From the NCBI GenBank assembly GCA_030446545.1, contig JAUJNB010000003.1, forward strand, positions 1 to 64,000: DNA of 64,000 nt, in the 5' to 3' direction. Position numbers and translations under genes: made by a program. This document shows positions 24,212 to 25,579 of the stretch, piece after piece (position 1 is the stretch's first letter; each line of letters opens with the position of its first letter). The DNA is from Acidimicrobiales bacterium (lineage in GTDB: Bacteria > Actinomycetota > Acidimicrobiia > Acidimicrobiales > CADCSY01). A model generated the notes under the pieces. That model saw only the letters and a program-made list of their open reading frames with translations, did no database searches and was not told the origin of the DNA.

Positions 24212-24505
24212 TCACTTGATCGGTCCCCGCCGGTGAGAACGGGCAGGGGCAGGGGGCAGGTGGCTCCGACGGTCGCTCGGCGTCGCCGTCGAGGTGGCTG
24301 GCGGCTTCGGGTCGTCCTGGCTGGTGCCGGGCCTGTCGCCGGCTCGTGGAGGCCGATGCGTTGGTGGAGCCGGCGCAACGGGGCCGGCGCCCACCAGTTC
24401 CAGTCGCCCAGGAGCTTCATGGTGGCCGGCACCAGCAGGGAGCGCACGATGGTGGCGTCGACGATGACGGCCAGGGCCATACCCACCCCGAACTGCTTGA
24501 TCTGT
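24212..24505 (-). pseudogene. C-terminal fragment of an MMPL-family transporter
   Basis: Reading on the minus strand from about 24501, the protein [20 protein letters not shown] then [20 protein letters not shown] matches the last transmembrane region and C-terminus of MMPL/RND-type exporters. The remaining roughly 650 N-terminal residues are absent; directly upstream lies the P-loop of an unrelated AfsR-type regulator. Downstream the frame runs on with Arg/Pro-rich sequence and no clear natural stop; an alternative frame stops at 24212. This is a fragment joined at a sharp breakpoint, not a functional gene. Confidence 0.6.
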
Positions 24506-24850
24506 ACTCTCCGGGGCCGGTCAGGGTGACCAGGCGGGCCTCCCCGAGCAGCTTGCGGACCCGCCGGCCAATCCGTCGTTGCGACCCACGAACGAGGTGA
24601 GCGAGGCCGTGGGCCACCTCGTCGGGCCGGTCGTTGCCCGGAAGGGCCGGCGACCTCCGTGGCCAGGATGCGCCTCGGGCTCCCGATCGGGGAGGACCTC
24701 GACAGGTGCTCGCTCGGGGTCCTGGGCCTGGAGGATGGCCGCCTCCTGTCGCGCTGCAGCCGATGCCGCCGTGGGGGACCCGGATCGACGCCGGCCAGCT
24801 CCACCAGCCATACGCCGTCGGCCACCTCCTGGGCCACCCTGCCGCCGGGC

Positions 24851-24881
24851 CTGCTGGTAGGCGGCCAGGGCGTCGGCCTGG
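24851..24881. repeat. 31-bp direct repeat, copy 1
   Basis: The 31 bases starting CTGCTGGTAGGCGGCC are repeated exactly at 24969-24999, 118 bp away. Both copies encode the same BTAD helix ([10 protein letters not shown]) on the minus strand, inside the scrambled regulator. Confidence 0.85.
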
Positions 24882-24968
24882 CGCTCCGGGCGACGCCACG
24901 GGCGATCGGGGAGGAGAGCTCGGGGTCCTGGGCCACCATGAGCTGGCCCCACAGCTCGTCGGCCAGCT

Positions 24969-24999
24969 CTGCTGGTAGGCGGCCAGGGCGTCGGCCTGG
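24969..24999. repeat. 31-bp direct repeat, copy 2
   Basis: Second perfect copy of the repeat at 24851-24881. The duplication may mark a recombination or misassembly point. Confidence 0.85.
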
Positions 25000-25579
25000 G
25001 CGTGCTCGGCCACCAGGGCCCTGAGCTCGGAGGTGACCTCGGCCTGGCGACCCAGGGCCAGGTCGGCCTCGATGCGGTTCTCGAGCACGGCCAGGCGCAG
25101 CTCCTCCAGCGGGCTGCCTCCCCGGCGAGGACGTCGCCGTCGGTCATGTCGCCCAGGTCGGCCACGTCGACCAGGGCCGGCCCCCGCCACAGCCCGAGTG
25201 CCTCCCGCAGCGTGGCCGCGGCCTCTTCCACCTCCCCCCGACCAAGGGCGGCCCGACCGCTGGCCCCCAGGACCTCGAATCGGACGGCGTCGACCGCGCC
25301 GGGGGTGATGTCGAGTAGGTAGCCGGGCCAGTGGCCGACCAGGCGCCGGGGCCCGACCAGGCGTCGCAGCTGGGAGACCCTGGCCTGCAGGGCGTTGACG
25401 GCGTTGGCCGGAGGGTGCTTGCCCCACAGCTCCTCGACCAGGCGGTCACGGGAGACCACCCGGCCGGGGTTGAGGGCGAGGACGCCGAGCAGGGTCCGGG
25501 TGCGGGTGCCGTTCACCGGGACCCGTCGCCCGTCCTCGATCACCTCCAGCGGGCCGAGTACGCCAACCTGCACGCGATC

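Follow-up and report, generated by a model that had tools for sequence, protein, structure and literature searches.

Between leuS and a PAC2-family gene of a draft metagenome assembly, the remains of an AfsR/SARP-type regulator are run together with the C-terminal end of an MMPL exporter, and the likeliest reading of this locus, to which a probability of about 0.6 was assigned, is an assembly or consensus artefact laid over a truncated AfsR/MMPL remnant. The locus is most likely not a new kind of gene. The window analysed was the 64,000-nucleotide stretch G000:C10:1-64000, from an assembly of 2.57 Mb in 44 contigs with a completeness of 71%. The features concerned were read as follows.

21134-24141, minus strand: leuS, with frame changes at ~23015, 23374-23392 and ~23980; position of the start codon approximate (comparison with same-genus relatives)
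24307-24501, minus strand: end of an MMPL exporter, with its C-terminal transmembrane (TM) region and tail, closest among relatives to the MmpL3-like class (Pfam/NCBIfam, relatives)
24510-24565, minus strand: start of the ATPase domain to the P-loop, 14 residues, shifted frame (translation)
24566-24751, minus strand: linker ahead of the ATPase domain, 11 residues and, further on, LTSFVGRND (profile positions 233-280)
24752-24841, minus strand: out-of-place block 2, 20 residues, 90 bp between profile positions 217 and 233 (reading of frames against relatives)
24842-24883, minus strand: helix, 18 residues, at its expected place (profile positions 204-217)
24884-24998, minus strand: out-of-place block 1, 29 residues, 115 bp between profile positions 186 and 204 (reading of frames)
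24999-25109, minus strand: BTAD continuation, 36 residues, shifted frame (profile positions 150-186)
25155-25573, minus strand: start of an AfsR/SARP-type regulator, with the winged helix and the beginning of BTAD in an open frame free of erosion (Pfam; profile positions 1-140, 180.5 bits)
25670-26692, minus strand: intact PAC2-family gene that borders the insert on the right (Pfam, relatives)

Regulator and exporter fragments

The minus strand from 25573 to 24510 carries an AfsR/SARP-type regulator, with a winged helix and BTAD followed by pieces that reach as far as the P-loop LTGPG. A sequence-only reading of the same DNA had described the regulator as starting normally with these two domains, and Pfam (PF00486, 7e-10; PF03704, 1e-9) and an AfsR/SARP match in NCBIfam agree; 154 clean residues are encoded by 25573-25112. 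The N-terminal winged helix (Trans_reg_C) and BTAD of the AfsR/SARP regulators (wHTH-BTAD-NB-ARC) are thus present, together with the conserved linker and the start of the P-loop, whereas no single frame contains the full NB-ARC ATPase and the C-terminal repeats that mark the AfsR subtype. The translation stops at LTGPG (~24510), where the ATPase domain had been said to break off, and the copy differs from its relatives also in its broken frame and two out-of-place blocks.

Residues 1-420 of 24 AfsR-like frames, each long enough for this, were used to build a regulator profile, which was searched against the three minus-strand frames of the locus. Its positions 1-140, 150-186, 204-217 and 233-280 were matched in increasing order along the strand, with the frame changing between some of them; the regulator backbone is therefore colinear, not shuffled throughout, and is broken by two short out-of-place blocks. 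The earlier description of the pieces as out of order accordingly holds for these blocks, and not for the backbone; the view that at least two discontinuities are needed stands. The first 140 residues scored 177 bits, within the 76-186 bits of the 24 intact relatives under leave-one-out scoring, a comparison that favours high fragment scores because the relatives were picked by similarity to the fragment. Slow pseudogene decay would be expected to leave eroded motifs, substitutions and stops; the N-terminus scores as intact and the blocks retain canonical motifs, so no sign of slow decay was seen.

The switch to the end of an MMPL protein at ~24501 was confirmed by a PF03176 match and by an alignment of 54 aa, 67% identical, with residues 691-744 of a 788-aa relative. 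The recognisable MMPL-like sequence spans 24307-24501, and the feature start of 24212 given previously was too low. What is present is the C-terminal TM region with an 18-residue tail, 54-65 C-terminal residues in all; the full RND-type polytopic protein is absent, ~690 N-terminal residues of an MMPL or MmpL3-like exporter being missing from the locus. The tail comes closest to the MmpL3-like class found in L078-L080 and shows less resemblance to the MMPL proteins of L099, L146 and L139. Used as a query against 12 genomes, it went unmatched in 4, which include the three other members of the genus. Neither the rest of this gene nor the remainder of the AfsR gene, both of which the sequence-only reading had proposed looking for elsewhere in the genome, was matched in the rest of the assembly; a second MMPL match was likewise not found there.

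That the locus encodes a functional short regulator or a regulator-transporter fusion is highly improbable. Its wHTH/BTAD N-terminus is open for 154 residues, but the frame changes inside BTAD and the sequence as given has no continuous frame, no ATPase domain follows the P-loop except for a misplaced motif, and the MMPL part is the last TM region only, in another frame. No basis for a functional fusion protein was found, and none is expected.

Out-of-place blocks and exact repeats

Block 2 is an NB-ARC motif (DGVWLVELA) sited ahead of the pre-ATPase linker; in intact relatives, L136, L139 and L141 among them, this motif comes after the P-loop. A 12-residue stretch is also out of order when the frames are read against relatives. 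The assignment of both blocks is a motif reading, since the profile gave -0.6 bits for part of block 1 and no match for block 2. A 10-residue helix is duplicated, as had been noticed, by a 31-nt exact repeat at 24851 and 24969. Block 1 in fact carries 31-nt and 17-nt extra copies of backbone sequence that are exact, silent sites included, and for this reason has the appearance of a duplicate of this gene and not of a paralogue. Exact direct repeats this close together (15 nt or longer, within 300 bp) occur only once more in the 64 kb window, and the duplication here is not a matter of chance. The density of close repeats was 1.40 per 10 kb in this assembly (257,192 bases examined), driven by one tandem array, and samples from the genus, the family and the order gave 0.16, 0.51 and 1.81; with that array set aside, the assembly as a whole is therefore not clearly enriched in short close repeats.

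These repeats bear on the proposal that the junction was a recombination scar or an assembly collapse between paralogues. A scar or a local assembly problem is still the best pair of explanations, and it is the paralogues that drop out. Many genomes of the order do carry several AfsR-like genes, but the sole other AfsR-like match in this assembly (C18:119612-120493) is 30% identical, the duplicated segments are exact, no second MMPL match was found, and a whole-assembly DNA search gave only five other matches, all short (30-51 nt) and 78-94% identical. With no near-identical second AfsR copy in the assembly, collapse or recombination between AfsR paralogues was rejected as very unlikely. A real chromosome scar is improbable, though less so; it would have formed by several microhomology-guided template switches in ~600 bp of a single AfsR gene, with an MMPL tail joined on, in a slot whose genes vary among relatives.

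The leuS-PAC2 slot in relatives

In the same-genus genome G001, 244 bp and no insert separate the aligned blocks that match the window up to 24082 and from 25670 on; the distance here is 1587 bp. The slot is nearly empty also in G009 and G011; in G003 it is occupied by an SBP56 gene, in G006 by an AMP-binding gene, and in G002 by an insert of 3.7 kb. A large-scale misjoin was ruled out, leuS and PAC2 adjoining in relatives as well. A 966-aa frame in the G002 slot was considered, by its size, as a full AfsR gene and dropped when Pfam gave DUF1648 only; tblastn of this frame against the window returned composition-driven matches only. Only the frame list of the tblastx slot comparison was used, since background matches in GC-rich DNA dominate among the matches listed.

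The stretches L048, L049 and L050 show the same slot variable in relatives, where it is empty or holds SBP56, AMP-binding or other unrelated genes. Elsewhere in G001 (L097, G001:C78, 6559-6897) the N-terminal part of an AfsR gene is present as a truncated stub, with 57-59% identity to that of the window, between a DUF4190-like gene and hrcA, and the window has no insert at the matching site before hrcA. The gene names DUF4190, hrcA, lepA and folP come from inspection of the translations by eye and not from a family search. Because G001 has a stub of its own in another place, the genus does contain truncated AfsR remnants.

A genuine young pseudogene, in which an AfsR-MMPL segment was gained in the variable leuS-PAC2 slot, its middle deleted, small local duplications added and consensus indels laid on top, is possible but doubtful. 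The variable slot and the stub in another member of the genus are what keep a recent real rearrangement in play. An AfsR gene followed by a same-strand MMPL gene was found in 5 of 23 AfsR-bearing loci, out of 27 loci examined, several of which were too short downstream to tell. Against this account, the motifs and first 140 residues are uneroded, the adjoining leuS is damaged too, and the MMPL tail is nearest a class not found beside AfsR in the loci examined. Derivation of the fusion from an AfsR-MMPL tandem was weakened by the same class difference. Tandem pairs in relatives from the same taxonomic order, such as L099 and L146, are arranged like the locus, AfsR upstream of MMPL on one strand, but their genes are complete and unfused and their MMPL is of another class.

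Reliability of the surrounding sequence

leuS is an essential gene and is present as a single copy in the assembly, and its three frame breaks all fall in the N-terminal kilobase adjoining the regulator and MMPL fragments. Those at 23015 and 23374-23392 were located against G001, and that at ~23980 from a 2-nt insertion and the reading of frames. In G001 and G002 the gene is open through the matched region; the sequence beside the locus is therefore locally unreliable. Further protein-level frame switches occur at ~31010 and ~32090, and a lepA-like gene that has an open frame in G001 is broken at 33475 and 34464. Since leuS is essential, these breaks are most likely consensus errors. The junction had been set apart from simple indels elsewhere, and it does differ in degree, but the damage to leuS in the adjoining kilobase points to local sequence quality.

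Errors in neighbours that must be intact, leuS and lepA, were counted for an artefact together with the low completeness and five 100-N joins among 193,192 bases in 11 additional stretches of the assembly. Counted against it were the lack of Ns in the 64 kb window, the absence of repeat enrichment, the AfsR stub in another genus member, and the C-terminal ~1.9 kb of leuS (21134-23010) and the PAC2 gene, which have no frame break, so that the sequence is not bad everywhere. An artefact over a truncated remnant was favoured over slow decay because of the local leuS damage, the exact internal copies, the uneroded fragments and the several jumps within 600 bp.

The order of the fragments, the duplicated segments, the damage to leuS and the synteny are observations, and we infer the artefact step. 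On this account ~23.0-25.1 kb of the draft metagenome assembly would be locally unreliable, with a real AfsR-type gene (first 140 residues clean) and a real MMPL tail placed between leuS and PAC2. A faulty consensus or gap closure would have produced the jumps, additional copies and frame changes, with fragments of one gene stitched at short shared GC-rich words; exact 31- and 17-nt repeats are what would be expected of one gene laid twice. The missing middles of AfsR and MMPL may have been lost in faulty joining, or may already have been deleted in the organism. Frameshifts and misjoins occur in draft metagenome assemblies, and the broken essential neighbour, local duplications and 100-N joins elsewhere fit that pattern, whereas several jumps within 600 bp exceed a single misjoin. 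A literature search at record level found no report of the leuS-PAC2 locus or of such an artefact. Until reads are checked, broken frames, repeated helices or seeming fusions in this assembly call for caution and are not to be taken as biology. Were the rearrangement real, the locus would illustrate, on a small scale, multi-switch rearrangement in an uncultured actinobacterium and the way in which genes for regulators and transporters disappear.

Two of the 100-N joins, at G000:C10:83477 (position 19477 of L229) and at position 19505 of L234, have flanks that share exact overlaps of 40 and 55 nt across the Ns, and are for that reason probably unmerged scaffold joins.
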